From positions 1 through 64,000 of the forward strand of contig JAGTXO010000058.1 of the NCBI GenBank assembly GCA_019448385.1: a stretch of 64,000 nt of DNA, given 5' to 3'. The notes under the pieces were generated by a model that saw only the letters and a program-made list of their open reading frames with translations, was not told the origin of the DNA and searched no databases. Every line of letters begins with the position of its first letter. Positions within the stretch are counted from its first letter, which is position 1. Origin of the DNA: Diacronema lutheri (taxonomy: Eukaryota; Haptophyta; Pavlovophyceae; Pavlovales; Pavlovaceae). A program made the position numbers and the translations under genes. Positions 3,336 through 37,367 of the stretch are shown one piece after another.

Positions 3336-3443
3336 GGCTCCCGAGGATTGCTTGTGGCGCTCGACTGACCGTTGGCCCAGCTTTTTTTTTTCTCGAACCT
3401 ACTGTGGAGCCGCCTGCAGCGTGATCTCCCGCGCACAACGACC

Positions 3444-16700: not shown

Positions 16701-16747
16701 ACCTGCGCACGCAACGGCGGCTGGGGTGGCAACGTCGGCGGCGACGT

Positions 16748-19700
16748 GTGCGGCGGTTGTTTCGGCGGCGGCGGCGTCCGTCGCGACGCCTGCGGCGGCG
16801 GCGACGCCACCTGCGGCTGCGGCGATGGCGGCGTCGGTGCTGGCGCTGGCGAGGCCCCTGCACACGGTGCGCCGGCGCGCGCGACGGCGTCGCGCTTGCT
16901 GCGCTTGCTCGGCGCGCCACGCGCCGTGTCGGTGCGATGGCGCACGCCGCGGCCGTGTTGGCGCGCGGCGTGGCCGCAGCCGTCGCTGGCGTGCGCGCCG
17001 CCGCGCGCGCCGTGCGGCGCGCGCGCCGCCGAGCGCCTCGCGCGCGCCGCACGGCTGCGCGGCGGGCTCGCGGCCCGCCGATGCGCGACGTCGACGGCGC
17101 CCTGCGGCCCTCGCCGTCCTGGTTGCGCACACGCCTCGTCTGCGGCCGGCGCCTCGCGCCTCTGCGCCGCGCGGGCGCGCGCCCGCCGCCCGCACACGCC
17201 GCGCCGAGTTCCCGCGCGCGCGCTGCGCAACCCGACAGCGACGCGCCGGCGTGCGCGCCGCGGCGCTCGGCGCCTGTCGGTGCGCCGCCGCGCGCGCGTG
17301 GCCTGCGCGCGGCGCGCGCACGGCGCTTCCTCGACGTCGCCGGCCGCGCGGCGCGGAGCGCGCGCCTCGGCGCGCGCATCACGCGCCAGCGCACGCCGGG
17401 TTCGCCATCGGAGCCCTGCACGGCCGAGAGCGGCGACGGCGCGGGCGCCGGCGGCGTCGGCGCGGCGGCGCCTGGCGCGGCGACGATGCGCGCCACCGGC
17501 GCGCGCGCAGCGCGCGCTGCGGCGGCGGCGGTCGGTGGCGCCTCGCGTCTCGCGCGCCGCGCGATGGCAAGCGCCGCCGCCGCTGCCACCTCCATCGCCG
17601 GCGCTGCCGCCTCCACCGTCGCCGCCGCCGCCGTTGCCATCGGCGCGGCCGTCACGTCACCGGCGTTCGCCGCGGCGCGCGGCATGGCGGCCGCATGCGT
17701 CGCTGCCTGCGCCCGCCCCACCGCCGCGCAGGCGGCCGCGTCGCGCGCGCTCGGCGCGCTCTTCGTGCTCGTCGACGCGGCCGACGCGGCGGGCGACAGC
17801 GACGCCGCGCTCGGCGCGCTCGCGGCCGCGGTCGACGCGACGGAGCTGCGCCCGCCGCCGGCCTTTTGGCGCGCGGGCCGCGCCGCGGCGTACGCACCGC
17901 GTCCGCCGCCCCTCGACTCGGCGCGGCCGCGCTACAACCGGCGCGCGCGCGCACCTAGCCCTCCCGTCGCGGCCGCGCGGCGCAATCTCGCGCGCGCGGT
18001 GCGCGAGCTCACGCGCGCCGCGCGCGCTGAGCGCGAGCGCGCGCCGGCGCCGCGCGGCGCGCGCGGCGGCGTGCTCCACGCGCTGCGCGCGTCGCTCCCC
18101 GTGCACGCGCGTGCCGCGCTCGGCACGGACGCGGAGCTGCGCGCGGACATCGCCGCGTTCGCGCGCGCGCGCCGCGAGCTGCACAGCCTCACCGACGCCG
18201 AGGTGGCGGCGCTCGCGCGCCCGGACGGGCCGCCGCTGCCCGTGCGGCTCGCGTGCACGGCGGTCGCGCGCGCGCGCGGCGTGACCGTGCTGCTCGACAT
18301 CGTGCCGCGCGGCGGCGGCGCGCCCGAGCGGCTCGTGTGCCGCGCCCGTCGCCGCGGCGCCGCCACGCGCACGCCACGGCCGACAGCCGCCGTTATCGCG
18401 CGCGCGCCTTGCATAGCGGCGCGCGTTGGCCACACTGAGCCGGCGCGCGCGTGCGCGGGCGGATCGATCGGGGTCGCGCGCCTCCGTTCAGCGCGCCGCC
18501 GCTCTTGGCGTGGGGCGCGGCTCGACGTGCACACCCGCGAGCGGCTGGCCACACCGGTGCCAGGCCACGTCGTGGCCTGCGCCGCCGCCTCGGCCATCGG
18601 CGCGTGCGTCGCTCGCGCGCGGCTTGGGCTTGCACGGCTGGCGCGCGCGTGGCCCTGCGCCTCCGCTCCACTGGCCGCTGCTGCTGTCGCCTTCGCGCCT
18701 GCCGCCGACGGTGTTTTCTGCGCCCCGCTGGGCGCTCCTGCATCCGCCTTCGCGCCTGCCGTCGACGGTGTTTTCCCCGCCGCACTAGCCGCTGCTGCAT
18801 CCGCCTTCGCGCCTGCCGCCGATTTTCCCGCCCCACTAGTTGCTCCTGCATTCGCCTCCGCGCCTGCCACCGACGGCGTTTTCCCCGCCCCACTAGCCGC
18901 TGCCGCTGCCGCGTCCGCGCCTGCCGCCGCGGGCGCGTCTTCCGCCCCACCAGCCATCGCCGCCGCGCCCGCCGCCAACGCGCGCACCGCCAACGTGCCC
19001 GTTGCCAACGAGGCTACCGCCACCGAACCAGCCGCCCTTGAGCTTCCCCTCCAACCCGCCAACTCGGCGCTGCTTGCGTGGGCGGGCGACGCGGCTGCGC
19101 GCCGGCTGGCCGCCGCCGCCGCGAGCGCCGGCCTCCCGCAGGCAGAGGTGGAGCGCATCGCCAGCGGCGACATGCTCGCCTCAACCGTCGACGCGTGCTG
19201 CGAGGTCGTGCTGCGCGTGCACGGGCAGGCCGGCGGCGGGCATGTCTGCCACGTGCCGCTCGCCGCGCAACCCGCGGTGTTTCAGGACGACGCCGAGCGC
19301 GCCGCGCTGCTGCACCGCCTGCGCAGCGAGGCGACAACGCAGGCTGTCATCGGCGTGTGGAGCCCGTCGGACGAGCGCGGCGGCGCGGGCGGTGACGACG
19401 GCGCGCAGCTCGCCTCCGGCCATTTCACCGCGTTGCGCCTTGTGCGCGTCGCGCGCGCGGGCGAGCATCGCTACGACGCGGTGCTCGTCGACACGCTCGC
19501 GTCGCCCTGCAGGCAGGCGCTCATGCTCGCCAAGGCGATAACTGCCACGCTGCACGCGGCGGGTCTCGACATTTCGCGCGTGCGCCGCGCGCTGCTGCTC
19601 AACGAGGCGGCGCAGCGTGGCGCGACGTGCGGCCTCGCGATAGTGGGCGCGCTCAACGACGCGCTCGCCGCGGCGGGCTGCTCGTCCGCGCCGCGCACGT

Positions 19701-20025
19701 TCAGCGTGGCGGACATGTACGCTGTCGGCGAGCGCCTCCGCGTCGCGCTGACCGGCGCGGCCAGCGATCGTGCGCCGGGCGGTGTCTGCGCGGTCACGAG
19801 CGCGGTGCGCGGCGGGGGCAGCCCCGATGGCGCCGAAACGCCGCCGCAGACGCGCGGCGCCAAGGCCGCCGCTGGCGTCACCGCCGCCGCCACCGCCGCC
19901 GCCACGCCGCCGCCGCCCGCGCTGGGCGCCGCCGCCGCCGCCACCGCCGCCGCCGCCGCTGCTGCCGCCGCCGTGGCCGCGCCGCCACCGCCGCCACCGC
20001 CGCCGCCGGCCGGCGACGCGGGCGA

Positions 20026-20098
<73 letters not shown>

Positions 20099-23000
20099 GC
20101 CGCGCGCACGTTCTTGAAGCTCGCGCCCAGGGCGCGCGCGGCCGCCTCGGCGCGTGAGGCGTTGCGCGCCGCGTGTGCGCGCGCGGACGCGGCGGCGTCG
20201 TCACACGCGTCGGCGCCGCACGCGCCCGCCGGTGCGCGCCGCCGGCGGCGCGCGGGCGCAGGCGAGCTGGCGCTCGCGGCTGCGCGCGCGCTCGCCTCGA
20301 CGGAGCACGGCGATTTGACGGACGACGCGCTCGAGGCCGCCGTCGAGCAGGAGCTGGGCGACGAGCGCGGCCAACTGCTGCTGTGCACGCGGGGCGCAGC
20401 GGCGCAAAGGCCCGCGCTTTGCCGGCTCCTGAAGCACGCGTGCGCGTCGGCGCGCGCGGCGAAGCGCGCGCAATTCACGGTATTCGTCGTGCGCGCGGCC
20501 ACGCGCGGCGAGCGGGGGGGCGCCGCCGCGAGGCGCGTGGACTCGGTGGTCGAGCTGTCGTGCGCGCTGCACGAGAAGGCGGGCGCGCTCGGCGGCCTCC
20601 AGAGCGTCTGTGTGCGTGGCTTTGCCCTCGAGCGCCGCCGGACACTCGACGCTGGCGCCGAGGCCGGCGCGTCCGCCATCGGCCAGGACGAGCAGGTCGA
20701 GGCAGAGGCGGGCGAGGCGTGCGTCGCCGGCGTGACGATGGCCAAGCAGCTGCGTCAGTTTGCCGAGCAAGCTGCCCGCGACGACGTGCTCTTCCACGTC
20801 GCCGTGTCCGAGGCCGACGCCCACGCCCGGCTGGCGCGCGTTGCGGGTGACGATGTCGGCGCGTACAGCGTCGTGCTCGCAGTCGCCGGGCTCGTCTGGC
20901 TGGCCAAGGCCGACGAGGTTGCGCCGGCGGCCGCCCAGTCCGCCGCCGTGCCGCCCGCCGCCCCGCCTGCTGCCGCCACGTCCGCCGACGCCGAGCGCGA
21001 CGCCTCGCCTTACGACCGCCTGCGCGCGCTGACGCTCGCCGTGCGAGTCGCGCTCGCGCGCGGCGTGCTGCGCCACCTCCTCGCCGACGCGTCGCCGGGC
21101 GCGTCCGCGACCGCTGGCGGTAGTTGCGCGACGCCCGTCGAGGCGGCCGCGTCCGACGCCGCGCCGCCCGCCACGGGCGTCGTGACGAGTGGCGTTGCGG
21201 CGGGCGCTGTGGCGGCCGCACCGGCTGCTGCGGGCGGTGCGATGGCGGGTGCATCGCCCATCGCGCGGCCGGCGAAGCGCGCGCGGCGCACGCTCACCGC
21301 CGCTCCAGCCGCCTCGGCCGTTGCGGCCGCTGGAGGCGCACGCGCGGGCGCACGCGGCGCGGCCGGCGCGCCTCGCGCGCGCGCCGCGCGCGCGCCGGCC
21401 GAGTACGTCTGGCTTGCCATCGCGCGCCGGATGCTGGCGGCGCGACACGCGGCGGCCGCGGGCGGCGACTTTGTCGCGTCGTGCGTCGCCGCGATGCAGG
21501 CCGAGTACGGCGACGGCTGTGCCGTCGTCGTCGGCGACGCGCCTGGTGACGCCTTGGTCGAGGCTGCGGCGGCGGCGCTGCTCGAGGGCAAGCACGCGGC
21601 GGTGAGCCTCGGCTGCGTCGACCGGCCGGCGGTGCTCGTCGTGCAGCGCGCCGTGGACGCGCCCACGTCGCGCGTGCACGGGTGGTGCGCGCACGCGGCG
21701 GGCGCCGCCGAGTTTGACGAGGGCGCCGCGCGCGACGTGTTCAACGCGATCGTCGAGCGCGCGTGGGCGCTGCGTCCGGACCCGGCCGACGGCAGCCCGC
21801 CGCCCACGCGCACGTGGGAGGTCGAGCAAATCGCTGACGACGCGCCCGACCAGGCGGGCGTGGCCGCGCTGCGCGTGCTCTACGCGCTCGTCGCGGCGCA
21901 CGGCCGCTACCGCTCGGCCGCCGCGCTCTTTGGCGCGATCGCGCAGCTGCACGCGCCCGACGCCGCCGGCGCGCGCGCGGAGGTCGTCGCGGCGGCGTGC
22001 GCGGTGCCGCCCGGCGCGCGGCCGGGCGCCGCGCCGGCGGCCGCGCGGGACGACGCGAGGGAGCGCGCATGGGAGGGCGCTCAGATCGCCGCGCTCGCCG
22101 TCGGCGCGGACGCTGCGCGCAGGCGTGTCGCGCCCGTGCGCGCGCTCGTCGACGCGCTCGGCACGCCGCCGACCTCGGCGATCACGGGCGGGCCGGCGGT
22201 GCGGCTCGCGGGCGCGGGCGACGGCGGCCACGGTGCACGGTGGGTGGGCGGGCAGGCGGCGACGCCCGCCGAGCAGCTGCCGAGGGAGCTGCTGCGCGCC
22301 TACCACGAGGCGGTGCTGTGCGTCACGCCCGGCAGCCTCCAGCTCGGCCCGGCGGCGCTCGACGCGGTCACGCGGCCGCGCGAAAACGACACGCTGGAAG
22401 GCCTCCTCGCGCGCGTCAGCTGGCAGTGCGGCGCGAGGGCGAGCACGTGCGCCATGCTCGCCACGTTTTCCGAGCAGGCGGGCACCGGCTCGCGCGTCGC
22501 GCTCAAGGCCCTCCGCACGAGCTCCGACCTGGCCGGGCTGACGGCGGCTGCGGTCGGGCAGCAGGCGCCGCAGACGCCGCCGCCGCCGCTGCTCGTGATG
22601 CTCGGCCGCTGCCCCAGCCCGCTCGTCGGCGGTGGCCTCTTCCCGCCCGACCGCGCGACGGGCGAGCCGGCGGTGCACGCGGCGACGTCCGAGCTCGCCG
22701 TCGAGCTGCTGCGCGACGCGCGCGCGCTGGCCGGCACGGACGGGCGGCTCGTCGTGCTGTGCCTCGAGGCGTCCAACCCGCTCTGGTTCTGCCCCAAGGT
22801 GCGCGAGCTCGAGCTGCCGCGGACGCGGTCGGACGGCGTGCGCGCGTCCGGCTGCACCTGCCCTGCGACGTGCAGCGATGCGCGCGGCGCGGCGGGTGGC
22901 GCTGCCCGCGGCGCATCGACGCGGCCGGCGGCGCGCGCGATCAACAAGGCGGTGCTCGACCACTTCGTCGCGCTTTTCGGCCGCGAGGGCTTCGCGACCT

Positions 23001-26000
23001 TTGAGTTTGCGGGCGGCGGCGAGGCGAGCTGGCTGTGCGACAGCGCGGCCGGCACGACGACCGTCGCGGCGTGCGCGTCGCTGCCGCCGCGCATGGGCGA
23101 TGGGCAGCTGGCCATCCGGCGGCACACGCTCGGCACGGGCGCCGACGCGCCGGCGCACGCCGTCGTCTCGCTCCGCGTCGCGCACGTGAGCCACGCCATC
23201 CGCCGCGCGGCGGACGACGGCGGCGCGCGCGCCGAGCGGATGGCGCGCGCCGCGCGCGCGTTTTGCGATGTGGCGGCCGCGCTGCGCGTCGACGCGATCC
23301 TGGCGGAGGTGCCCGAGGACCGCCCGACGGGCACGCCCTTCCTTGGCGGGCTGCTCAAATTTTGGGACAAAGACCACGGGAGCTCGACGGCGCCAGCCAC
23401 GCTCGCGCTCGGAGACGTGCGCGAGGTGGCCAAGCGGACGGCCGACGCAGCGGCCGGCCGAGCGGACGAGGTCCCTGCGGCTGGCCGTCCGCAGGTCGCG
23501 GCGCGCGCGTGCGCTGGCGCGATTGGCGGCGGCGCGGGCGCGGCGGGCGCCTCGGACGCTGCGCCGCGTGCACTGGCGGGCGCGTCGGGTGCGCGCACGG
23601 ACGGCGGCCCTGCCGACGCACCGCGCCAGCTGGAGAGCCGCTACGGCGAGGCGAGCAAGCTCGACCTACCCCAAGATTCCACTACGGGCCGCGTCCTCGA
23701 CGCTCGCGAGGCCCAGGACCGCGCGCGCGTGCCTGCTGCGCCCGACGGCACAGCGCTGCGCCGCGTGCTCGACGCCGTCGGCGCGGGCGCGCCCGCGCAG
23801 CGCAGCCCGCGCTGGCACGACGAGCGATGGGAGGAGGTCACGGGCAGCAAGGTTGGCGACGTCGTGAACGACAACGCCGGCGTCGCGCACGAGACGCTCA
23901 CCGACGAGTACGTGCACCGGCGGCGGCGCGAGGTGCGGACCAAGGCGACGACCGCGGGCATCCTCGGCGAGGCCGTCGCGCTGCGCAAGCTGGCGGCCGC
24001 GTACGGCATCACCGTCGTGTGCAACCTGCCGATGGTGCGTGCGGACCCGCACGACAAGAGCGCGCCGTTCGCCTTCTCGCCGGACGGGCTCGCCATCCTC
24101 CCCGAAAACAACGAGCAGGTCCTCGTCGAGGTGAAGACGCTCACCAAGGCGGGCGCCACGGCGCACGAGGACGGGCCGCCGCAGCCGCACCGCGATCAGC
24201 TGCAGCTCGGCATGCACGTCCTCGGCGTGAGCAAAGCGCTCTACGTGCAGTACCTCAGGCACGAGGACCGGATCGTCGTGCACGTCGTGACGCGCGGCGC
24301 CGGCTGGCTTGCATTCGCGCAGCCGAGGGTGCAGGCCTTCTGGGCGCGCGTCGTCGAGCGGCGCGCGCGGCTCGAGCGCGCGCGCGCCGACCACCCGGCT
24401 GCGAGCCGGCGGCACCGGCGGCAGCAGACGCCGGCCGGGCCGCCGCTCGTGCTCGCGCTGGACGGGCGCATCCCCGCCGCGCGCGCCGCCGCGCTGCACG
24501 CCGTCGCGCACGGCACCGCGAGCGCGGCGGCGGTGACGGCGGCGGCGGCGACGGGCGACGCGACGGCGTTGCAAGACGCGATCGCGGCGCTGCGCGCGCC
24601 CGTCGGCAATGCGGCGATCGACAGCGCAGCGCGTGCGGAGCGCGCGGCCGTCGAGCGGGCGATCGCGTACCTCGGGCAGCCGGCAGGCGACGCCGCCGCC
24701 CGCGGCACGGCCGAGGCGGCCGAGGAGGAGAGGACGGTCGACGCCGACATCGGCGCGTTGCTGCACCAGCTCGGCGCGAGCGTGGCGCACGTGCACGTCG
24801 AGGACGCGGATTGCGTCACGCGTGAGCACTGGGGCGGGGCGGTGCTCGCTGCAGCGGGCGACCCGTCGAGCGCCCCCGCCATTTCGAGCGTCATCGTCGC
24901 GCACATCGTGCGCCTCGCCGGCTTTGGCGTCGAGCTCCCGCAGTCGATTCGCGTCGCCCCCAGCACGGCCGACTGGCACGAGGGCTGGCTCGACGTGCAG
25001 TGCGTGCTGCTGCGCACGCGCCGGCGCGGGCGGCGCGACGACGACTTTGTGGCCGTCGTCAGGCGCGGTGGGCGCTGGTTTGCGTGCGAGCCCGGCCGCG
25101 CGCGGCGGCTGCAGTGGCGGTCGGTCCTGCGCCGCGCGCGCGGCGGCGTCGACGGGACCGGCGAGGAGGCGTTCGCGGTCGTCTACGTGCGGCGCGGCGA
25201 CGCGGCCGGCGACGCGGCTGGCGACGCGCAGGCCGAACGGGCGCGCGGCGGGCGCGCGCGCAGGCGCACGCGCGGCGGCACGCGCAAGCGCAAGCGCGGC
25301 GCCTCCGCCGGGCTCGAGGCGGCCGCGCCCGCCGGCGCGCCGGCGGGCGCTGCTCACCGCCCGCCCGCCAGGCGTGCCACGGTCGCCGCGCGCACCACGC
25401 GCTCTGTGACCGACGCGCGGCACTCGGCGCCTGCCGCCACGGTTGCACCTGTCTTCGACTGGCGCGCCGGCCGCCCGCCCCCTGCCGCCGCCGCCGCCGC
25501 CAAGCGCGGCCAGGCGCTCGAGCCGGGGCAGTTCGCGCGGCCGCGTGGGCGCGCGCCATGGGGCAAGGTCTGGGACAGAGTCTCGGGTGCGTGGGCGGAC
25601 AAGCCGACTGGTGCTGCCGTCGCCGCCGCGCCGCCGCCGCTGCCGCCCGCCGCCGCGCCGCCGCCCGCCGCCGCGCCGCCGCCCACCGCCGCGCCGCCGC
25701 CCGCCGCCGCGCCGCCGCCCGCCGTCGCGCCGCCGCCCGCCGCCGCGCCGCCGCCGCCGCCGCCACCGGCGGCGCTCGGCCGCCGGCAGCACGTCGGCGC
25801 GGGCGGCAGCGCGGCGGGCCGGCGGCTCGCGGCCATCGCACGGCGGCAGCGCGGCGTGCGCGCGCCGCCGCCCGCCGCGCGCTTCCTCGCCACGCTGCCG
25901 CCACCGCCACGCGACGGCCTCGCGCGCACGAGCAAGCAGGCGCGCGCGAGGCGCAACGCGGACGGACGGCCGGCGCACGCGCGCGCGGCCAACGCGCGCG

Positions 26001-29000
26001 CCTTCTACCGCGGCGTGGAGCTCGGCGTGCACGCGACGCGCGCCATCGTCGACGCGCGCCACGCCGACCTGCCGCAGGCCGTCTTCGTGGCGGAGGCGCG
26101 GGCGATCGTCGCGCGCTCCGCCGGCGGCGGCGCGCTGCTCGCGCCGGACGACGTGCGCGACCTGTGCGACGCGCAGACGGACGCCGATCGCGCTGCGATC
26201 TGGGCGTCGGTGGGCGCGCACGAGGCGACGCGCATCTTCGCGCTCGTCACGCGCAACGCGAGCTTGGCGGGCGCGGCGCTGCTCGTGCTGCACACGCCGG
26301 CGGGCGCGCCGGCGCGCGCGCTCGGGCTCGTGGCGACGCGCTCGCGCGCGCCGTCGACGGGCGCGCCGCGCGACGCGCACAGGGCGCTGGTGCAGCGGTT
26401 GGACGTGCTGATGGACGCGATCGCCGCGGCGCGAGGCGCGTCGCCGCTCGAGCTCGAGCTCGCGCTCGCGCCCGAGCCGCAGAGCGCGTGCAACGCGCGT
26501 GCGGCCGCGCTGCTCTGCCTGCAGGCCGTCGCGGACGCGAGCGGCCGTCCCGCCGCTGAGGACGCGCTGGCCGCGCTCGACGACGCGCGCGGCATCGACC
26601 GGCACTGCCACGCCGTCCGGCAGCAGATCGAGGCGAAGCTCGCGTGGCGGCGCGCCGACGGCGCCGTCGGCGTTGACGGCGCCGACGGCGCGCCCGCGCT
26701 CGCGCCTGCCGCCGCACCGCCGGCGTGCGCGCCGGCGCACGCTGCCGGCGAGGCGGCGGTCGACCAGGCGATCGTCACGCGGGTGCGCGACGCGCTGCGC
26801 GCGTGGGCGACGACTGGCACCGCGCCCAGCGCGGCGGTGCTCGACGACGCCTGCGCCGCGTACACGGCCCGCGCACGCGCGCGCAAGGACGCGCGCACGG
26901 CGCTGGGCCCGACGCGCGCGGCCGAGCTGCTCGCCGCGGCCGCGCGCGGCGGAGCCGACGGGGCGGATGCCGCGCGCGCGCTGCTCGGCGGCACGCCGCG
27001 CCTGCTCGTCGTGCTCCTCTGCGTGCCCGTCGCCGCGCCGTCCGGCGAGCCGCCGCGCCCGGTCGGGCTGCTCGTCGCCGACCGGCCGACGGACGACTCG
27101 CGCCCGGCCGCGCTCGTGCGCTACGACTTTGCGCCGCTCGACGCGGACGTGGCCGTCGCGGTCGGCGCGCATGCCGTCGCGCTGGCCAGTGCGATCTGGC
27201 CGCTGCTCGCGGCCGAGGGGGAGCCGCGGCCATCGCCCGTCGTGCGCTCGCAGCCGCGCGGCGGCGACGATGGCGCGCGTGCGCTCGCAACGTTCGCGTG
27301 CCTCGACGCGCTGATGACCGCCAGCGTCGGCGCGCACGGCCTCGCGGGCGGCGCGGGCATGCTGCCCGCGCTGGTCGCGCGAGGCGCCGCGGCCGCCCAG
27401 CGCGAGCGGCAGCTGCGCGCGGCCGCCGAGAGGCTGGGCGGCACGGTCGCTGGGTGGCCGGACACGGGCGCGAGCGCGGCGGGCGCGAGCGTCGACGAGG
27501 AGGCGCGCACGTACGAGGTCGAGGCGGTCGTCGACGAGCGCCGCAAGGCGGGCAAGAAGGTGACGTTCCAGTTCCGGATCAGGTGGCGGGGCTACGACGA
27601 GAGCGCCGACACGTGGGAGCCTGAGGCCAACGTGAGCAGCGACCTCGTCGCCCAGTTCCGCAAGACGCGCGACGAGCAGAAGCGGCGCGCGGGCGTATCG
27701 GGCAGCGGCAGCGGCGGCGCGGGCGCGGCGTCGGCATTGGCGTCGGCGCCGCTTCGCGCGCACGGCGAGTCGGGCGCCGCGGGCAAGCGCGCCGCGGCGG
27801 GTGCCGCCGCGAGCGCGCGCGACGCCGCGGGCGCGCGCGCGCCGAGCGTTCCCCGCGCGCGCGGCGTCGAGCGCGCGCGCGTGGACGAGCCCGCTGCGCC
27901 GAGCGCGCGCGCCGCCGGCGGCGCGACGGCGCGCACGCGCGTCAGCGTGCTCCCGGGCTTCGTGGTCAAGCGCTCGACGCTCAACGCGGGGCCGCAGGCG
28001 GTGACGGCGCAGCCCGGTGCGCGGAAGGAGCTGCGGCGCATCGCGGCGGCCGTGCACAGGCTCACGACACAGGCGTACCGCGTCATCAACAAGGTGGTGC
28101 GCGACGAGGCTGCGGTGGCGAGCGCGCAGGCCGTCGGCGCGGCGTCGGGCGGCCCGTCGACCAGCGTGCACACGTCGACCACGATGGACAAGGGAACCGT
28201 CCGTGCGATCTTCTCGGCCATCGGCTGGCACAAGGACGAGAGCACGTACGGTGCAGCGCCCCGAGGCAAGCCCGCCGAGCAAGCCGCCGCGCAGACCAAG
28301 GCGGCGACGGCGCGCGCCGTCGGCGAGATGGCCGAGGGCGTCCAGCCCGTCTGCGCGGTGGGCCTCACGGAGATCCTCGAGGCGGAGGCGACGCAGGTGT
28401 CCACCGCGTGCCTGATGCATCCATCGCGCGTCGTGAACGGGCTGCTCCGCGACGTCGTCCGCGCGGCAGTCGAGCGCGACGAGGCGCTCGTCGCGCTGCC
28501 CGAGATGCAGCGAAACGCGCGCGTGCGCGAGCTGTGCGAGCGGCTGCTGCGCGGCGACGTGGAGGGCGCGCGCGTCGGCTGCCCCGCCGCGCTCGACCGC
28601 CACCTGCCCGACATGGTCCTCCACAAGATCGACTACAAGTGCACGCCCACGAAAAGGTGGAACTACGACCGGCACACGACGCGCTACTTCCTCGTGCAGA
28701 TCCGCACCCTGCAGCACGTGGCCGAGGGGCAGGCGCTGCTCTGCCGGCTCGCGCACATCCACACGCAGCTGACCGGACGGCCGCCGCGGTACAATGTGGC
28801 GCCGCTGCGCACGCACAATGTGCGCGCGAGGCGTGGCTGCCGCTGCCGCCGCCGAGCGCCCAAGCGCGCGCGCCGCCGCCGTGCGCGCCGCCCCGCGGCC
28901 AGGTTGGTCACGCGCCCGCGCGCTCGCGCGCCGCGCGCTGCGCGCAGGTGCCGCGCAACGTGCGCCTCGCCGCGAGCGCCATCTGGGTGACGCTTTCGGA

Positions 29001-30666
29001 TGACGAGCGCAAGGAGCTGCGCGCGCGGCTCAAGGCGCTGGACCTGCGCGACCACGATGGCGAGCCGATCAAGTGGACAGGCACAAACGGCAACACCCCG
29101 CCGATGTCGGACGTGCGCGTCAGGTACGCGGTCTTTGCGACGCGCTTCGACATCTCCAACCGCGTCTTCGACTACGCCGGGCGCGAGCGGCCGCCGGCCG
29201 ATCTGCCGTGGCACGCGCGGCGCTCGTGGGTTGGCCTCGCGCCGCTGCCGCGCGTGCCGCTCCCGGGCCGGCAGCCCGTCAAGTCGGTGGTGACAGATGG
29301 CGTCGCCGTGCACGCCGTCGGGACCGTCCTCGTGCCGAAGGCGCAGGCGCCGGCCGGCGGCTCGGGCGTCCTGCACCGCTGGCGCCGGCCGGACGGGCGC
29401 ATCGCCGTCGCGCTCGGCTCCGAGCTGCGGCGGGCGATCGACGTCGAGGCGGCGGTCGTCGTCGCGGCCGACCCGAACATGGGCAACATCACCACCTACT
29501 CTGCGCACGTCGGGCGGGCGGCCGTCTGGCGGCAGTTCACGCAGCGCGCGCGCGCGCGCGCCGCGGGCTTTGCGCGCGAGACGGCCAAGACCAACGCGGC
29601 GCGGCGGCGCGTGCGCAAGGACGGGCGCGGCGAGGAGTTCAGCGTGGAGGCGGACGAGGCGCGGCTTGGCGAGGCGCACAGCGCCAAGGTGCTCGACGCG
29701 GGCAAATACATCGCCTTCCACCGCGAGAGCGCGCGGGTGCGCGAGCGCGCCGCCGAGCACGTGTACGACGCGCCGGCGCGCCGGAAGGAGCGCTGGCGGC
29801 GCGACAGCGGCGGGCGGTCCAACGCGGCGCGCGTCGCCGAGGCGCTCATCGCGGCGCACTGCGTCGACGGCGTGACGCGCGACCGGCTGCTCGTGTGCGT
29901 GGGCAAGTGGCTGCGCGACCACAAGGGCGCGCAGCCCAAGGGCGCGCCGCCCGCCTTCCAGGTGGGGCTGCTGCGCGAGCTGCGGCGGCGCGGCGTCGCG
30001 GCCGTCTTCGTGCCCGAGCCGTACACGTCGATGCACTGCTCGATGCCGCGGCTCGCCAAGGGCGGCAGGCTGCAGCGCTGCGGCGCGGAGCTCGCGCAGA
30101 ACCCGCGCCTGCCCGTGGCAAAGGGCGGCACGCGCACGGTGCACGCGCTCGTCATCTGCCCGGCGTGCAACGGCGGCAAGAAGCCCGTGCACCGCGACTA
30201 CAACGCCGCGCGCAACATCTTCTACGACGTGCACGACATGGCGGCGCACGCGGCCGGGCGCGACACCACGTCGACGCCTGAGCGCTTTGCCCTCGTGCTC
30301 GCCTGGTGGGCGCGCGGCGAGGTGTGGGAGCGTGAGGAGCGCATGGTGCACGGCGAGGGCGACGACTGCGACGACGAGTGCGACGGCGACGACGAGGGCG
30401 ACGACGAGGGCGACGACGACGACGACGACGACGGCAGCGGCGACGGCGGCGGCGGCGAGGGCGACGGCGACGGCGACGGAGGCGGCGGCGGCGACGACGA
30501 CGATGACGGCGGGGGAGGCGGCGGCGGCGACGGCGGTGGCGACGACGGCGGCGGGCGCGGCGGCGGTGGCGGCGGCGGCTCTCGCGCCCGCACCCCCGCC
30601 CGCGGAGCTGCCAGCGCCAGTGCCGGCGGCGGCAGCGCGCGCGGGCCGAAGCGCGGCCGGCGTTGA
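16748..30666 (+). CDS. Giant multidomain protein: Ulp1-like protease, YqaJ nuclease, chromodomain, Fanzor
   Basis: One frame is open from 16748 to 28819, over 12 kb without a stop. It is joined by a 128-bp phase-0 intron (28820-28947, GTGCGCG..GCGCAG) to 28948-30666. That gives about 4,600 residues, or about 6,000 if fused to the block upstream. The first part up to about 16980 reads as another frame's shadow, so the true 5' exon junction lies near 16.6-17.0 kb. Domains in order: Ala/Arg-rich region, Ulp1-like protease (19.2-19.7 kb), poly-Ala (20.0 kb), unassigned globular parts with further Q-G-x-x-x-like protease-fold echoes, YqaJ nuclease (23.8-24.3 kb), Ala/Pro linkers, chromodomain (27.5 kb) and Fanzor (27.95-30.25 kb). 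An Asp/Gly acidic tail ends in basic PKRGRR, a likely nuclear signal. GC-rich DNA favours long frames, but domain matches along the whole frame show it is genuinely coding. It could still be split by unseen introns into more than one gene. Confidence 0.65.
19030..19720 (+). other. Ulp1-like (C48) protease domain 2
   Basis: Second Ulp1/SENP-type cysteine protease domain inside the giant frame. Catalytic-type residues are His 19421-19423 (ASGHFTALRLV), Asp 19490-19492 (YDAVLVDTLAS), Gln 19613-19615 and Cys 19628-19630 (AAQRGATCGLAIVGALNDAL). The Q-to-C spacing is one residue shorter than in yeast Ulp1, but the CG that follows matches the family. Activity would be removal of SUMO-like modifiers or self-processing; which one cannot be told from sequence. 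Confidence 0.65.
19900..20100 (+). repeat. In-frame (GCC)n trinucleotide tract encoding poly-Ala
   Basis: Imperfect then perfect GCC repeats (the purest run about 20029-20094) encode more than 20 consecutive Ala residues in the giant frame. A Pro-rich patch precedes it. It behaves as a linker between the second Ulp1-like domain and the next globular part and is likely length-variable. Confidence 0.8.
23800..24340 (+). other. YqaJ/lambda-exonuclease-type PD-(D/E)XK nuclease domain
   Basis: Recombination exonuclease fold found in phages, large DNA viruses and some eukaryotic mobile elements. Seen in order: SPRWHDERWEEVTGSKVGDV (the S..W...R...TGS entry motif), GILGEAVALRKLAAAYG with the conserved Gly-Glu, FAFSPDGLAI with the catalytic Asp, VLVEVKTL giving the E-x-K pair, and RDQLQLGMHVLGVSKALYVQ, the Q-rich helix that closes the domain. 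All metal-binding residues are present, so the domain looks catalytically competent. It lies in the same frame as the chromodomain and Fanzor downstream. Confidence 0.85.
27508..27661 (+). other. Chromodomain
   Basis: Canonical chromodomain of about 50 residues: TYEVEAVVDERRKAGKKVTF then FRIRWRGYDESADTWEPEAN and LVAQFRKTRDEQKRR. The aromatic-cage positions (Tyr of YEVE, Trp of RWRGY, Trp of DTWEP) are all present, which predicts binding to a methyl-lysine histone tail. Chromodomains on transposases and integrases steer insertion to chromatin with given marks. Here it sits about 100 residues before the Fanzor start in the same frame. Confidence 0.9.
27950..30666 (+). other. Fanzor (eukaryotic TnpB-like) RNA-guided nuclease module
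   Basis: N-terminal part from about LPGFVVKRSTLNAG through YKCTPTKRWNYDRHTTRYF to 28819; intron 28820-28947 (phase 0); C-terminal part from VPRNVRLAAS. RuvC-I Asp is at 29470-29472 in VVVAADPNMGNITTYSA. The strand where TnpB has its RuvC-II Glu reads LLVCVGKW with no Glu; an alternative Glu lies 38 residues on (30016-30018) in VFVPEPYTSMHCS. The zinc ribbon has Cys at 30037, 30079, 30157 and 30166 (TSMHCS, QRCG, CPAC). RuvC-III Asp is 30196-30198 in PVHRDYNAARNIFYDV. This pattern (moved Glu, TS.xC, RD.NAA.NI) is that of the Fanzor family. An acidic DDDD/GGG tail and a basic end follow. All catalytic-type residues are present. Confidence 0.85.
28820..28947 (+). other. Phase-0 intron inside the Fanzor coding region
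   Basis: Donor AAT|GTGCGCGCG and acceptor GCGCGCAG|GTG join LRTHN to VPRNVRLAAS exactly in frame, both sides at codon boundaries. The intron is 128 bp and GC-rich. Both flanking segments carry Fanzor sequence, which makes this the best supported splice in the mobile-element part of the window. Confidence 0.8.
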
Positions 30667-31080
30667 CGCACGGCCGAGCCGCGCAGCGGTCGACGCTTTG
30701 CGGGCTCTGCCCAGGTCGCGCGCGGCTGGCGACGCGTACCGCATTCGGCACGCCCGTGCACGCCGCCACCCGTGGCCGAGCGCGCCGCACCAGCCGGCCC
30801 GCTCCAACCGCCGTGCGGATCACGGACGCTCGCTACGGCTCGTCGGCGCGCGTCACCTGCGCCGGCGGCCACGGCGCCGTCTGCTCCGGCCTCGTCGCGA
30901 GCAGCCCGACCGCTGCTCGCCGCCCGCACGCCGCCGCAGCAACGCTGCGCGTCGTGCTCCCCCGCTCGCCAAACGCGAAGAGCTCCCTCACAAGGACGTC
31001 CTTCCGAACGGCCCGCGCTGCACTCGGGGCGCGATCGTGCCCCTGATCGGATTTGGCTTGACCATCTATAATACTCTGAT
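30667..31080. other. Intergenic, between converging gene ends
   Basis: 414 bp between the Fanzor stop and the end of the minus-strand K+ channel gene. A frame of 127 codons on the plus strand has no motif and looks like chance. The last 60 bases become AT-richer (ACCATCTATAATACTCTGA) and may hold 3'-end signals. If this Fanzor uses a guide RNA made from its 3' flank, as TnpB-family elements do, it would lie here; I see no clear hairpin or element end to prove it. Confidence 0.4.
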
Positions 31081-34000
31081 TCAGTCCCCGGCGAGCGAGT
31101 CGCGCGATCGTCGCGAGGCAGCCGAAGCGCCGCTCGCGCCGCTCGCGCCGCTCGCGCGCGCGTCATGCACGTCGTGCGCGTCGCCCGGCGCGAGGCCCAC
31201 GACCTCCGACGCCGCCGAGCTCACCGAGCCGCTACGCGACGGAGCGACGCCGACGGAGAGCCCGCCGAGCCGCATCCTTCCCCCCCCCACCATCGTCCTC
31301 GTCGCGAGGCCGCCGTCGCCCGCGCGCGCTCGTTCGGCTCCCGCTTCGCCCGCGCCGTCCGCGCCAGCGCCGTCCGCGCGCGCACCGTTCGCGTCCTCGC
31401 CGTGGGCGCGGGCGAAGCGGGAGCCGAACGAGCGCGCGCGGGCGGCAGCCGTCGCACCGTCCTGCGCGCACGGCTGCGCGCCACCGCCGTCGCGCTCGGC
31501 GCCGCCGGCCGCGCTGCCGCGCGCGCGGCACCCGCTCCCGCCCCCGCCCTCGCCCTCGCCCCCGCCCTCGCCCTCGCAGCCGCAGCCGCCGCCGCCGCCG
31601 GCGTCGGCGCCGATGGCGGACGCCTCGAAACGCACGCGGCCGAGCGCGACCGGCGTGGCAAGGTCGGTGCCGCCGCCGCCGGCGGCGGCTTCGTTCGCGG
31701 AAGTTTCGCGGAAGCGGACTCGGCCGGGCGTGCGGAGCGCGGATGGCGGCGCGGGCGATAGCGCACCGCCGCCGGGGCCGCCGGGGCCGCCGGGGCCGCC
31801 GGGGCCGCCGGAGCCGCCGGGGCCGCCGGGGCCGCCGGGGCCGCCGGGGCCGCCGGGGCCGCCGGGGCCGCCGGGGCCGCCGGGGCCGCCGGGGCCGCCG
31901 TCAGCGGGCACATTGAGCGCACCGGGCGCGGAGATGACTGTGTCGTCGATCGAGACGGGCTCGACGCGCCATGAGCGCCGCTTGGGCAGGCGCGGACCCG
32001 CGCCTTTCATGGGCGAGATCGGCACGGCGAACCCGCCCATTCCCCAGTCCGAGCCCGTCGAGTCGTCGGAGCGCGCGGCGGAGTGGCGCGAGACGCGCAC
32101 GTCGGCCGCGCCGTTCGTCGAGGCCCTTGTCGCCGCGCGGCGCTCCTCCGCCGCGCGGCCGCCGCCATCGCCGCTCAAACCGTTCCCAACGGCCGCGCAG
32201 CTGCCATTCGTAACGGCCGCGCCGCCGCCATGCGTAACGGCCGCGCCGCAGACATGCGTAACGGTTTGCGATCGCGCGTCGCCGCGCCGCTCGAGCAGAG
32301 CAGCGGCGCCGCCGCGCGCGCCGCCACCGCCGCCGTCGCGCCGCCGCCGCTGCAGCGCAGCCGACGCCGCGTCGCGCGTGAGGACAAACATGCTGCACGG
32401 GGAAGGGGGAAAATCAAGGAATGGGGGGAGGGGGATGGGGGGGGGGGGGGGGGGGGGGGGGGGGGGCGAAGGGGTGGGAAGGAAGGGATGTGATGGGGTG
32501 AATGACGGGCGCGGTGCGCGACGAGAAGGGCAAGGGCAGGAATGGTGAGGGGGTTGGGGGGGGGGGGGAAAGGGGGGGATGTGATGGGGTGAATGACGGG
32601 CGCGGTGCGCGACGAGAAGGTGTCACACGGTGCGCGCGGACTGCCACGCGCAGCGCGCGGCCAAGCCCTCGATGCGCGCGGCGCGGCGCGGCACGCGCCG
32701 GTCATTTGGCCCCACAACGCGCGACGGCTCCGGGTTGAGCAGCACGTAGAAGAGCGCCGGCTTGGTCGAGTCGGACGCGCCGTCCTCGTCCGCCGCCAGG
32801 TCGAGGAGCTCCCTGCCGAGCGCGGCGAGCACCTGTCGGATCTGCGCCTGCTCGCGCCTACGCCGGTCTTCGGCGCCGGCGCGCGCGCGCTGCCAGTAAG
32901 CCGGTGAGCCCGAGATGTGCGCGCCGTCCATTGGGCAATAGAGGCCGAGACAAATATAGCCCTCGGCAGCCATGCGCTTGAAAAGCTCTCCAAAGGAAAG
33001 GCGGCCAAAAATGGCGGGCACGGGCAGCTGCTCGACGCCGGCGGTGCGCTCGTCGCCGACGAGGAGGTTGAGGAGCGGGATGAGGTGCGGCATGAAGAAG
33101 TTGGCCGTGATCATCGAACACGTCATCTCCGCCGCGTACGCCGAGCCCGACGCGATCGCTGGCGACTGCAGGTAGTGCGGGAACGAATCGACCGCCGGCC
33201 ACCACTCGCGCCCGTCGTCGACGAAGCGCACGGCGCGCAGGTCGTCGAGGTCCGCGATGACGCGCACCGACGACGCGGCGCGACCCGCCGCGCGGTGCGC
33301 GCGGCTGCTCCTGAGCGCGTTGCGCACTTTGGTCACGGCGAGGACGAGGTGCGTGTCGCCGACGGCCGAGTCCGCGTCGGCGGCGCCCGCGCGCCTCGCG
33401 AGGTCCTCGCCACCGAAGAGCACGACGCACGACGCGTACGCGAGGCCCGCGCGCTCGAGGTCATGCTCGTCGAGCGCCGAGCCCGAGACAAAGTGCGTGC
33501 GCGCCGTCCTGCGCAGCGCGAGCAGCGACTCGCCCGAGTCCGCCGGTTCCGCCGGCGCGAGCACGACGATGCGATGCGCGCACAGCGACGCGGCGGTGTC
33601 GACGAAGGTGGCGAGGTTGCCGGGCCAGCCGCACACGAGCACGAGCTGCGCGTCCGCCGAGCAGAGCGGCCGCATGTCCGAGCGCACGACGTCGGCGAGC
33701 GCGCGCAGGCCGACGTCGCCGTCGCCGTCCGCCGCGCCGCCGCCCGCGCCGCCGTCGTCGCCGGCGGCCGCGCGGAGCGCCTTGGGCGCGAAGAGCATCG
33801 TCTGCCTGCGCTGCTGCAGCTGCTGCGCGTACGTGCCGTCGCGCGCGCCCTCCGCGCCGAAGAGCGCCGTCTCGTTCGTCCACGCCGCCATCTCGCCGAG
33901 CGGCGGGCGCGGCGGCGGCGGCTGCTGCGCCCGCGCCGCGTCGCACGCGCCCGCCGCGCCCGCCGCGCCCGCCGCTCCCGCCGCGCCCGCCGTCGGCGTC

Positions 34001-35218
34001 GGCGTCGTCGCCGTCGTCGCATCCGCCGCCCGGCCGCTCGGCGTGCACACCGCCACGGGCGGCATGGGCGCATGCGCACCGGCCCACCCGTTCCGAGCAG
34101 CCGCGGGCGCGCCCGCCGCCGCGCACGCCGCCGCGTCATCCGTGGCCCCCACACGCGCGCGCGCGCCCGCGCGCGCGCCCGCGCGCGCGCCGCGCTCGGC
34201 GGCGACGGCGTCCGGCGCGCTCTCGCGCCGCGCCTGCGCGACGGCCGCGGCGGTCACGTGTCGGAAGACGCCGCGCGTCGCGGCCGAGCGCGCCGCGCGC
34301 GCGCCAGGCGAGAGCGCGCCGAGCGTGAGGCGCGAGCCGCCGCGCCGCGCGCCGGGCATGTCGTGCTTCGCGGCCGTGGCAGAGTCGACGTGGCGCGGCG
34401 CGAGGCCGAAGCGCGCGCGCGCCGCGTCGATCATGGCGGCATCGATCGGCGCCGTGCGGAGCGCGTCGACGACCTCCGCGCGCTCGGCGAGGAGGAAGAG
34501 CTCGTCGTGCGCCCACTGCGGCACGAGCGCCGGGTTGAGCCGCGTGCGCTCCGCGTCGGACGAGCCGGCGGGGTGCGAGCCGAGGGCTATGACGAGGCCG
34601 GCGCTCAGCTCGTACAGCACGAGCGCAACGACGCCAAAGGTCTCGCCCGAGAGCGCAGCGGGCAGCGGCGCCGCGTACAGCTCAAAGGTCCACGTGCGCA
34701 CGTACTCGCGCCCCCACGCCTCCCTGGCCGCACCGCCGCTCGCCGCCGCGCCGTCGACCGACTCGTCGTCGAGGAGGAAGAGCGCCGTCATGACCGTCGT
34801 GAGCCCCATGCAGCCGGCCGCGCACTTTCCGAGAAGTGTCATCTTGAGCGTATTCTGCGCGAGTATATTTTGGACGCCCAAATCGGAGAGCGTTCGCCGG
34901 TGCTCGTCGCGGTTCAGCTGCACGTACAGCCGCGCGACGATGGCGCGGTTGTACTTGGAGAGCGCGAGGACGACGAGCGCGGCGCGCAGGTCGGCGCGCC
35001 GCTGCGCGTGCGAGCCGCGCTCGGCGGCGGCGATCACGAAGACGGCGATCGCCGTCGGCAGCGCGAGCTTCTCGATGAGCCCGACGTCCTGCGAGAGCAG
35101 GTCGCCGCGCAGCAGGCAGACGCGCCCGTCGTATCTGCGCCGGTACGCGGCCAGGTCGTACGACTCGAGCTCGAGCGGCGTGAGCACGATGCAGCGCGGC
35201 GGCGCGCTCCGCCGCGCC

Positions 35219-35263
<45 letters not shown>

Positions 35264-36560
35264 GCTGTGCCTGCAAACCGCCCGAAAAGGTCGCGCAGTA
35301 ACTGATCGAGCTGGTGCGGCGAGATATGGCCGACCATGACGAAATGGGGCTCGGCGGCGCCGGGCAGCGCGCCCGACCGCCGCTTTGCCGACGCGAGCAG
35401 CGTTGCGAGCTCGGAGAGCGCTGCGGGCACCTGCGCGGCGGTCGGGGGCGGCGCGGGTACACGCGCGCGAGCGCGCGCGCGCGCGCGCGTCGGTCCGCCG
35501 CGGCGGCGCGGCGCGGGAAATGGGGCGAGGGAATGCTGGACGCGAAGGTGGCGGCAGGCTACACGCGCGCGCCAGGCACCCGCCCGCGGCGGCGCGGCGC
35601 AGCGCGCACCGTCGTCATCACGAAGACGATGACAAGCATGGCTACCGCCCTCGAGAGCGGGTGTGATGGCGACCAATCGCCATAGCCGACGGTACTCATC
35701 GTGATGAACATGTAGTAGATGAAGTCAAAGTAGTTGACGAAACCGCGCGCGTGGTCCGGCGCCTCGACCTCGAAGAAGAAGCCGGCGAAGAGGAGCACGA
35801 CGCCGGCGAGCCGGACGGACGTGCGGACGACGAGGAGGCCCACCTCGTCGAGCCCGCGCAGCGCGGAGGACGTGGCGCGCAGGTCGAGAAGCGCGACCAT
35901 GCGGAGGTAGCCGAAGCGGGTGGACGAGCGCACGTAGCTCGCGTCGTCGATCAGCGCATACGTGAGCAGCCGCGCGACCGGCGAGAGCAGCGCGTCCGTG
36001 TAGGCCTCGCCCGAGAAGACGTACTCCGACTTGCGCTCGGCCGCCGCGTACCCGAGCGCGAGGTCGGAGCACACGACGGCGCCAAGGCCGAGCTGCAGCC
36101 AGACGAGCCAGGTGGGCATCGCGCTCACGTCCCACGCCTCATCCGCGCTCTCGCGCCGCATGTACGCCACCTCGACGACGTAGAAGACGCACCAGCACAT
36201 CCGCAGGTTCAGCCGCACGACCGCGCGCGCGTCGCCGGGCAGCAGGTGCAGGACGGTGCTGGCGAGCGCGCGTGGGTCCTGCCAGATCGCCGAGCCGTAC
36301 GTCGCGCGCTGCACGCGCACGATCGCGAGCGCGACCAGGCCGCACAGCAGCACGTGCGCGACGACGCACGCCGACGAAAACGCCGCGACCGCCTCGATGC
36401 GCATCGCGCCGTCGAGTGCGGCGGCCTCGAGGCGCGCGCCGCTGACGCGGCCGGCGGCAATGTAGACGTGCAGCACGAAGAGCAGTGCGAAGATGGCGAG
36501 CGCCACCGCCGTCGTGCGCGCGCCGCCGCGCCCCAGCATGGCGCCAGCAAAACCGCCCAC
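31081..36560 (-). CDS. BK/Slo-type potassium channel with tandem RCK domains, 3 exons
   Basis: Plasma- or organelle-membrane K+ channel of 1,688 residues. Exons (minus): 36560-35610, 35430-32627, 32392-31081. Introns are 179 bp (phase 0, GTGCGCG..GCGCAG) and 234 bp (phase 2). Residues 16-317 hold an S0-like helix, S1-S4 with spaced Arg (211-235), S5, pore helix and filter TVGYGD (290-295), then S6. RCK1 starts PHFVMVGHISPHQLDQLL, followed by the BK hallmark LKMTLLGKCAAGCMGLTTVM. RCK2 starts LVLVCGWPGNLATFVDTA and continues to SAYAAEMTCSMITANFFMPH. No obvious Asp-rich calcium bowl is seen. The last exon is a low-complexity cytosolic tail with (GGP)n. The 5' start MGGFAGAMLG is the first Met before S0. 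Intron 2's donor could shift by two bases; phase 2 keeps the frame. Confidence 0.9.
31771..31908 (-). repeat. 9-bp minisatellite encoding Gly-Gly-Pro repeats
   Basis: About 15 copies of a CCGCCGGGG nonamer in the last exon of the K+ channel gene, read on the minus strand as GGPGGP. One copy differs (GGS). It is collagen-like only by composition and lies in the disordered C-terminal tail. Confidence 0.85.
32393..32626 (-). repeat. K+ channel intron 2 with C tract and direct repeat
   Basis: Two G-runs on the plus strand (C-runs on the sense strand), one near 32438-32466 and one near 32557-32576. They separate two direct copies of a roughly 45-bp unit (GATGTGATGGGGTGAATGAC and onward, at about 32485 and 32576). 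The second copy ends next to the splice donor. The duplication suggests the intron grew by tandem duplication of donor-proximal sequence. Confidence 0.65.
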
Positions 36561-37367
36561 CCAGCCGGAACGGTTATCCGTGTACGAGCCGGAGAGATAC
36601 TACGGTCATTCGCAAGGGGTTAAAAAAAAGAAGGGTCAAAGACTCAAAAGTTGCAGATCTAGCCGCACGTTCTTGACATCATATTTATTTGTTTTCAAAA
36701 AGTTGCACCGTTTGGCCTAGCCTGTTCGGGACCCCGAGCTTAGAGAGGTCGGTCATCTCGACGCTCAACTTGTTGAGGCGGCTGCCGTCCACGTAGACAG
36801 CGCACTGCCCGTGCGCGGGCCTCGCCCGAATGCAACTCACTTCTTGCGCAGATCTGTGTGTGTGACCAGAACGAGGAGCGCGAGGCTGCACTTCGTGTTG
36901 AGCACCTGCTCCGCGCTGCGAGCCATGCGCCACTCATCGCCGGCACGCGCGGCGAACACGGATCGGCGCATAAGCTGAGCACTGCGGGCGCTTGCAGCTT
37001 CAGTAGAGTCAATGCGACGTCCTGATTTGGGACCTGCTCACCGCCGTGGAGACGGTGCACGTGCGCAGCTACCATGTCTAGGCAGCGCCGGGCGAGGTGA
37101 GCGTGCTTTTCGACGACTGCCGAGCCGCTGTCGCGCGCGATGGTGCTCAAGCTGCGCTCTGGTAGGCTTTGAGCGGTGAGCAACATGCACTGGCTGTATG
37201 ACGCCGTGCGTTTCGCCCTGATCCATTCGCTGGGCCATGAGGGCTAGAGGGAGGGCATCAAGCTGCGCGCACGCGCTGGCGCGCTCGAGGGCTGGGCTAG
37301 CCACGGTACGGTGCCCAAGTCCATAAAGGAGACGCAGGGCGCGATCCGGGCCTACTCTTCGCACTGG
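36561..37367 (-). pseudogene. Decayed minus-strand gene fragments between two host genes
   Basis: About 800 bp with natural-looking protein text on the minus strand in alternating frames: QLDALPLALMAQRMDQGETH, then HAHLARRCLDMVAAHVHRLH and QDVALTLLKLQAPAVLSLC, then EQVLNTKCSLALLVLVTHTD, then AVYVDGSRLNKLSVEMTDLS ending QLFENK and a stop at 36685. Base composition is less GC-rich than the neighbours. I found no splice sites that join the pieces in frame, so a decayed gene with three or so frame breaks is the simplest reading. The family is not recognised. The part from 36561 to about 36680 is AT-richer and should contain the K+ channel promoter. Confidence 0.4.

Follow-up and report, generated by a model that had tools for sequence, protein, structure and literature searches.

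In a window of 64,000 nucleotides from the haptophyte Diacronema lutheri (the whole stretch of DNA analyzed here, C49:1-64,000 in our contig numbering), positions 1-31,070 on the + strand are one copy of a 31.07-kb transposon, a family with about 200 young copies in the genome. The contig begins at the left end of this element. The region 23,800-30,666, in which a preliminary description of the window had seen a Fanzor nuclease, a YqaJ exonuclease and a chromodomain sharing one reading frame, is the 3' part of the element; the unit is thus larger than had been described, and the predicted polypeptide measures ~6,200 aa. Our preferred reading, to which we assign a probability of roughly 0.5, is that of a giant Fanzor DNA transposon, the last gene of which specifies a very large protein with YqaJ, chromodomain and Fanzor at its end; we infer that this protein would maintain the copies of the element by RNA-guided cutting and resection.

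The boundaries of the element were read from an alignment of copies, in which the homology of six copies stops at 31,068-31,070, with divergence beyond, and two of those six begin at window positions 1-2. The long copies are ~97-99.7% identical to the window. The left terminus (1-26, +) reads GGCGCGGTCC..., starting GGCGCGG..., the right terminus reads ...CCATCTATA, and no inverted repeats were seen at the element ends. The genome that was searched comprises 43,492,796 bases in 103 contigs; PMC8379373 gives 73.25% GC for the published assembly of strain NIVA-4/92 and describes three strand-specific RNA-seq libraries of D. lutheri. Exact matches numbered 208 for a 26-mer from the left end, 210 for a 24-mer from the right end, 222 for a 32-mer mark in the RuvC part of the Fanzor and 215 for a 31-mer mark in YqaJ. 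At up to one mismatch, the chromodomain mark was found 226 times, a PIF1 mark 146 times and an upstream protease-like mark 135 times, and the reversed-pattern controls for the mark and end searches gave 0 matches. Furthermore, comparison of the RuvC part with the genome yielded 86 scored matches (of 431 candidates) with a protein identity of 99-100%.

Nearest-partner pairing, applied to the first 100 left and right ends of the listings, gave 68 pairs: 34 had a length of 30.4-31.6 kb, 9 of 29.1-29.4 kb, 7 of 26.0-26.9 kb and 12 of 21.4-22.2 kb, single copies measured 14.6 and 12.6 kb, and 4 exceeded 32 kb. With copies averaging ~28 kb, the family would total roughly 5-6 Mb. The window copy and the copy at the end of contig C71 are identical over 27,400-31,070 and C71 stops where the element stops, so C71 and C49 probably adjoin via this copy. 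Contigs C1, C3, C5, C6, C8, C10, C12, C14, C32, C33 and C71 all stop a few bases from the element's 3' end, and because of this the repeat is probably behind many of the assembly breaks.

The YqaJ/RecE-like exonuclease domain (23,813-24,223, +) was delimited by profile matches. It matched PHROG 434 (RecE-like) with an E-value of 4.1e-15, and scored 21.0 bits (0.00042) against Pfam YqaJ, just below the cut-off of 22, in the window copy; the copy at C71:175,587 exceeds this cut-off with 28.2 bits. The match to TIGR03033 (2e-5, 24.7 bits) was below the cut-off of 68. A phage search with YqaJ returned weak matches to 20 Escherichia-phage records, with 27.1-27.7% identity in the ten that were listed and a best E-value of 6e-5, and a PDB sequence search with the domain gave no match. 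The chromodomain (27,512-27,664, +) was recognized by PF00385 at 6.5e-12 (45.6 bits, cut-off 25.1), with CDYL (2dnt, 3.6e-11) as its best PDB match. It aligns to CDYL and HP1, and the conserved Tyr, Trp and Tyr, which we take to be the methyl-lysine cage, are present. Both the YqaJ/lambda-type exonuclease and the canonical chromodomain of the preliminary description were therefore borne out by these profiles.

The Fanzor forms the end of the same predicted protein. Its N-terminal half, where WED and REC are expected (27,905-28,819, +; start approximate), lies in the YqaJ frame and is assigned by its position and continuous coding bias only; no Pfam family matched it. The RuvC domain and zinc ribbon follow at 28,948-30,330 (+), with the D codon at 29,470, the alternative glutamate (E-alt) at 30,016 and the D of RD at 30,196, and an Asp/Gly-rich C-terminal tail with the stop codon completes the gene (30,331-30,666, +). 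The zinc ribbon (TNB) scored 28.3 bits against PF07282 (1.9e-6, cut-off 26.3). The Fanzor motif D-x(125-275)-[TS][TS]-xx-C4 zinc finger-RD, as defined in PMC3627910, was found with a D-TS spacing of 184, four Cys and RD, and it occurred in 0 of 20,000 shuffles. E-alt lies exactly six residues ahead of the first zinc-finger Cys, the hallmark as defined in PMC10711439. The RuvC residues and zinc ribbon reported earlier are thus confirmed. Against NF040570, the NCBI TnpB model, the score was only 14.4 of 100 bits, and a PDB sequence search with the joined Fanzor returned no Fanzor, the best nuclease being Cas12f1 (E=0.42). Judged from its sequence, the nuclease half is a Fanzor by most features tested, DPG excepted.

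The reading frame of the gene was examined in the window and among the copies. A stop-free open reading frame (ORF) in + phase 2 (16,658-28,990, 4,110 codons) contains YqaJ, the chromodomain and the Fanzor N-terminal part, and RuvC and the zinc ribbon lie in + phase 1 (ORF 27,625-30,666). The third-position GC signal moves from phase 2 to phase 1 at ~28.8 kb. Six GT-AG pairs that restore the frame were listed there, of which 28,820-28,947 (128 nt) and 28,820-28,902 (83 nt) look the most natural; the former is our candidate phase-0 intron in the Fanzor (+; GTGCGC...GCGCGCAG), with 28,902 as the alternative acceptor. The single frame proposed in the preliminary description therefore holds as far as the Fanzor N-terminal part, and RuvC and the zinc ribbon would be joined to it only if the intron is spliced. 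With that need for splicing, the covalent link of the three domains is still the best reading of the sequence. Upstream, a candidate intron of 133 nt (15,446-15,578, +; GTAGGC...GCGCGCAG; one of seven frame-restoring GT-AG pairs listed) would connect a 1,345-codon ORF. Predicted exon 1 (11,771-15,445, +) is open in phase 2, with coding bias and no Pfam family, and predicted exon 2 (15,579-28,819, +) is an open frame that is interrupted upstream of 16,658 in the window copy; the product of the two exons and the Fanzor end is predicted at the ~6,200 aa given above. A 57-bp tandem repeat lies within the giant ORF (18,663-18,929, +).

Between 16,658 and 28,819, 4,054 codons are open, and there is no stop codon between YqaJ and the candidate intron at 28,820. 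Wobble-position GC is at least 0.87 in each 300-nt bin from YqaJ to the intron. When the 12.2-kb stretch was simulated 200 times with a first-order Markov model, the longest + strand ORF had a median of 684 and a maximum of 1,497 codons. We did not trust ORF length alone, because antisense ORFs reach 1,787 aa; a chance ORF is ruled out by the simulation together with the coding bias. The stop-to-stop frame of the exon 2 region spans 4,500-4,918 codons in five of the six other long copies, the longest belonging to the C71 copy, which carries an upstream internal deletion; the sixth copy has its giant frame split into 1,795 and 2,843 codons. The YqaJ mark was found 6.0-6.1 kb upstream at 90 of the 100 RuvC places listed, and in 71 of these 90 linked copies the spacing differs from that of the window by a multiple of 3. 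Because more than 4,000 codons are open, the coding bias is unbroken in the linker and YqaJ and RuvC are linked at 90 of 100 places, a fused gene YqaJ-chromodomain-Fanzor is well supported at the level of the DNA. An assembly artefact at the junctions, which the preliminary description had named as a threat to its proposal, is ruled out by the copy numbers of the ends and of the YqaJ and RuvC marks and by the linkage of these marks.

The marks were retained unequally among the copies. Sixty of the 68 end pairs were used for this comparison (excluded were six that lie on contigs beyond C40 and two longer than 33 kb), and between the ends of these 60 copies the YqaJ and RuvC marks were each present in 60, the PIF1 mark in 37 and the upstream protease-like mark in 35. 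Thus, the PIF1 mark is missing from 23 end-to-end copies. Every shorter copy has the YqaJ and RuvC marks (five size classes, two of them represented by one copy each), and no small end-only derivatives were seen among the 68 pairs. Ordinary DNA transposons freely shed their genes; because the YqaJ and RuvC marks were kept in 60 of 60 copies, the data hint at a requirement for the YqaJ-chromodomain-Fanzor part in cis, or else at the loss of copies that lack it. Few independent deletions underlie this pattern, which calls for caution.

The sequences flanking the copies share a motif. TATATA[C/G] stands immediately before the left end in 168 of 208 copies genome-wide and terminates 21 of the 23 left flanks read, with C as the base eight before the left end in 16 of these 23; the left flank of the window copy would end TATATAG, if C71 adjoins. 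Directly after the right end, TATAC was present at 31 of 34 distinct right ends, and the sequences differ beyond it; the exceptions are the window copy (TATAATAC), one with TAACG and one truncated by a contig end. Strand matches to CTATATA[C/G] numbered 193 + 206 genome-wide versus 41 + 43 for the reversed control, and in contigs C1-C18, 33 of 75 distinct octamers adjoin a left end. This left-flank motif is a candidate target-adjacent motif (TAM), and it may be target sequence or in part element sequence. Fanzor/TnpB elements have the TAM on the left-flank side, and IS607 and eukaryotic Fanzor elements take fixed right-flank bases into the RNA scaffold (PMC10711439). A clean empty site was not found in the sequence examined, which gave only a repeat sharing flanks with the copy at C4:40,361. 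Promoter targeting was considered and rejected, as 20 right flanks showed neither a clear ATG-ORF pattern nor mutual similarity.

Two further observations concern individual insertions. At L027:1,100-1,210 and 3,290-3,340, and in left flanks L044, L047 and L049, several insertions adjoin a repeat that contains GCGCCGTTAGT and may be a different mobile element serving as a landing site. Both flanks of the copy at C9:2,907,808 (L058/L013) contain an additional direct duplication, GCGAGGACTATAT, which is absent from the other pairs read.

We hypothesize that the element works as follows. Transcription through the right end would yield an RNA that has host flank at its 3' end, and this flank could serve as the guide. 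The Fanzor with this right-end RNA would cut a matching empty site, left by excision or present on an allele without a copy, recognizing TATATA[C/G] as TAM and then that flank; the attached YqaJ would resect the cut end, repair would copy the element back from the filled site, and the chromodomain would keep the enzyme bound to chromatin with methylated histones. New insertions would depend on a separate recombinase or, in the boldest view, on the YqaJ-chromodomain-Fanzor machine. According to this boldest view, which we consider improbable, the fused protein is the spreading machine itself, with no conventional transposase, and RNA-guided breaks beside TATATA[C/G], resection and PIF1-helped copying insert the element replicatively; such replicative RNA-guided insertion, if true, would be a new class of transposition. 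By its position the right end would suit such an RNA: the Fanzor is the last ORF of the element, is oriented toward the right end and extends to it. The 3' non-coding right end (30,667-31,070, +) is the expected place of the omega or right-end RNA and contains a hairpin at 31,026-31,043, ~25 nt from the element's 3' end. Positions 30,892-31,068 show zero single-nucleotide polymorphisms (SNPs) across 21 other loci, one of which is probably the same physical copy as the window's.

If the fusion is real, the cell already makes an RNA-guided nuclease joined to a histone reader and an enzyme that resects DNA ends, the kind of fusion that genome engineers would like to construct in order to favor templated repair. 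The coupling of cutting, end resection and chromatin targeting in one polypeptide, as proposed in the preliminary description, is what we infer from these domains. With ~200 young copies, each with a potential guide of its own, the proposed copy-keeping role of the Fanzor could be tested in one culturable alga.

Several points weigh against a copy-maintaining fusion protein. Only 6 of 17 distinct YqaJ-RuvC spacings differ from the window's by a multiple of 3, and of the 27 gaps in a repeat-rich alignment of the linker, only 6 have a length divisible by 3. Ten of the 100 RuvC marks listed lack a YqaJ mark at the usual spacing, so broken copies exist. SNPs in the giant ORF show no wobble-position excess among copies; for this reason, and because the copies are so young, selection on the fused frame is not demonstrated. 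The RuvC part in L002-L021 has 5 SNPs, 4 of them at third positions, a low variation that means little because these loci were chosen by RuvC similarity. Separate adjacent genes, or an assembly error, might merely appear fused, and the change of frame at 28.8 kb, the interruption upstream of 16.66 kb in the window copy and the split frame in one of six other copies fit this explanation. Nevertheless, order and spacing are the same at 90 of the 100 RuvC places listed, no stop codon intervenes from YqaJ to the intron and the coding bias is unbroken, which makes separate genes or an assembly error very improbable.

To the same side belong points on the nuclease, its RNA and the copies. RuvC-I of the Fanzor reads DPN, not the near-exclusive DPG; the G of DPG is not absolute, because the active site of SpuFz1 includes D383 and N385, as given in PMC10432273. 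The right-end RNA did not fold better than its shuffles (z = -1.0, 35 of 200 folding at least as well), and an Rfam scan of the window gave no match. Furthermore, TATATA[C/G] may be merely the target of a recombinase, and the retention of YqaJ and RuvC may simply go back to a small number of founding deletions.

Upstream of the giant gene, a PIF1-like helicase (4,377-5,455, +) is encoded in two frames, requiring at least one intron or frame change; this region matched PF05970 at 3.7e-14 and 1.4e-24 and Pif1 2B at 1.5e-9. Ahead of the PIF1 motor, 3,420-4,376 has a strong coding bias and no family, and it may be an accessory DNA-binding domain. A weak coding signal on the - strand near the left end (~100-1,900) may come from a small spliced gene whose sequence resembles a coiled coil. 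A ubiquitin-specific-protease-like (UCH) domain was recognized at 7,613-7,879 (+; PF00443, 4.3e-8, 33.5 bits, cut-off 23.9). Cysteine-protease-like stretches were seen, by eye only, at ~11.9-12.4 kb, within predicted exon 1, and at 19.0-19.9 kb. With these stretches, the ubiquitin-specific-protease-like domain and a predicted product of such size, the giant protein could be a polyprotein; cleavage, perhaps by cysteine-protease-like domains of its own, would leave Fanzor, YqaJ and chromodomain as separate proteins that are just co-expressed. We regard this as possible if somewhat unlikely, given that no Pfam family model recognizes the protease-like stretches.

Pfam recognized no recombinase of the DDE, tyrosine, serine or HUH type in the 32 ORFs and 10 sub-segments scanned, which cover the larger ORFs; a motif scan for HUH and YxxKY gave nothing convincing, and a PDB sequence search with two unknown segments gave no match. 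Among viral contigs, no relative was confirmed for the PIF1, RuvC or YqaJ pieces, and among phages none for the PIF1-ORF piece or RuvC. A diverged tyrosine recombinase beyond the reach of Pfam, Crypton- or Starship-like, might move the element and carry Fanzor-YqaJ-chromodomain as accessory cargo. Such an enzyme would suit an element of giant size that lacks terminal inverted repeats and has a short direct repeat, TATA, at both ends (within TATATA[C/G] on the left and the TATAC on the right). We consider it unlikely, because the recombinase search was negative and because marks kept in 60 of 60 end-to-end copies do not behave like dispensable cargo. A rolling-circle element of the Helitron type that has captured a Fanzor, comparable to Chlamydomonas Helitron2, would account for the PIF1 helicase and the hairpin ~25 nt from the 3' end, and Fanzor1 in Helitron2 is reported in PMC3627910. 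However, a Rep/HUH domain was found neither by Pfam nor convincingly by the motif scan, both of which a diverged Rep may have escaped, the left end is not TC and the right end is not CTRR except in 1 of 34 (CTAA), so that a Helitron origin is decidedly doubtful.

The remainder of the window lies outside the element. To its right, on the opposite strand, is a BK/Slo-type calcium-activated potassium channel gene (32,626-36,599, -), with BK_channel_a, Slo-like RCK and Ion_trans_2 in two ORFs. At 41,806-44,250, several tandem repeats, including some with units of 9, 54 and 12 bp, lie within a 2,093-aa ORF without a Pfam family. Very long GC-rich tandem arrays with extreme strand skew occupy 49,940-57,834 and 61,435-64,000, with units of 12 bp (~581 copies), 234 bp and 8 bp (CTGCCCCC), and giant ORFs overlap these arrays.

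Among the literature matches listed, none has both Fanzor and YqaJ and no title describes this element, in a search that mostly left subscription papers outside. Starships are giant, and Starships and Cryptons are without inverted repeats and have short direct repeats at their ends. The element has these features in common with them (giant size with Starships), but no tyrosine recombinase was recognized here. Because the defining enzyme was not found, we do not assign the element to Helitrons, Cryptons or Starships. With Fanzor1 elements it shares the RuvC D-E(alt)-D, the C4 zinc ribbon, a gene extending to the right end and a conserved left-flank motif. As far as the available texts describe them, the Fanzor there is a protein of its own, e.g. 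633 aa in the 2.1-kb element SPu-1 (among Bao & Jurka 2013; Saito 2023; Yoon 2023), whereas here it would form the C-terminal end of a giant multi-domain protein, the element measures 31 kb and RuvC-I has DPN. Fanzor1 is also carried by Helitron2 and other transposons (PMC3627910). Chlamydomonas Helitron2 with Fanzor1 (CRe-1, 2, 3) resembles our element in its algal host, the Fanzor1, the many young copies, the hairpin near the 3' end and a helicase (RepHel in the autonomous Helitron2); it differs in that no Rep/HUH was found here, and in its ends and target motif. Among eukaryotic DNA transposons, ISL2EU likewise encodes a YqaJ exonuclease; there, as described in PMC4482050, a separate YqaJ ORF stands beside a DDE transposase in an element of ~4.8 kb with inverted repeats; here YqaJ is predicted to be fused to the Fanzor, and no DDE was recognized. 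Finally, a chromodomain in a mobile-element protein has its precedent in chromodomain-bearing long terminal repeat elements (PMC6338049), but the chromodomain described here appears to be fused to an RNA-guided nuclease.

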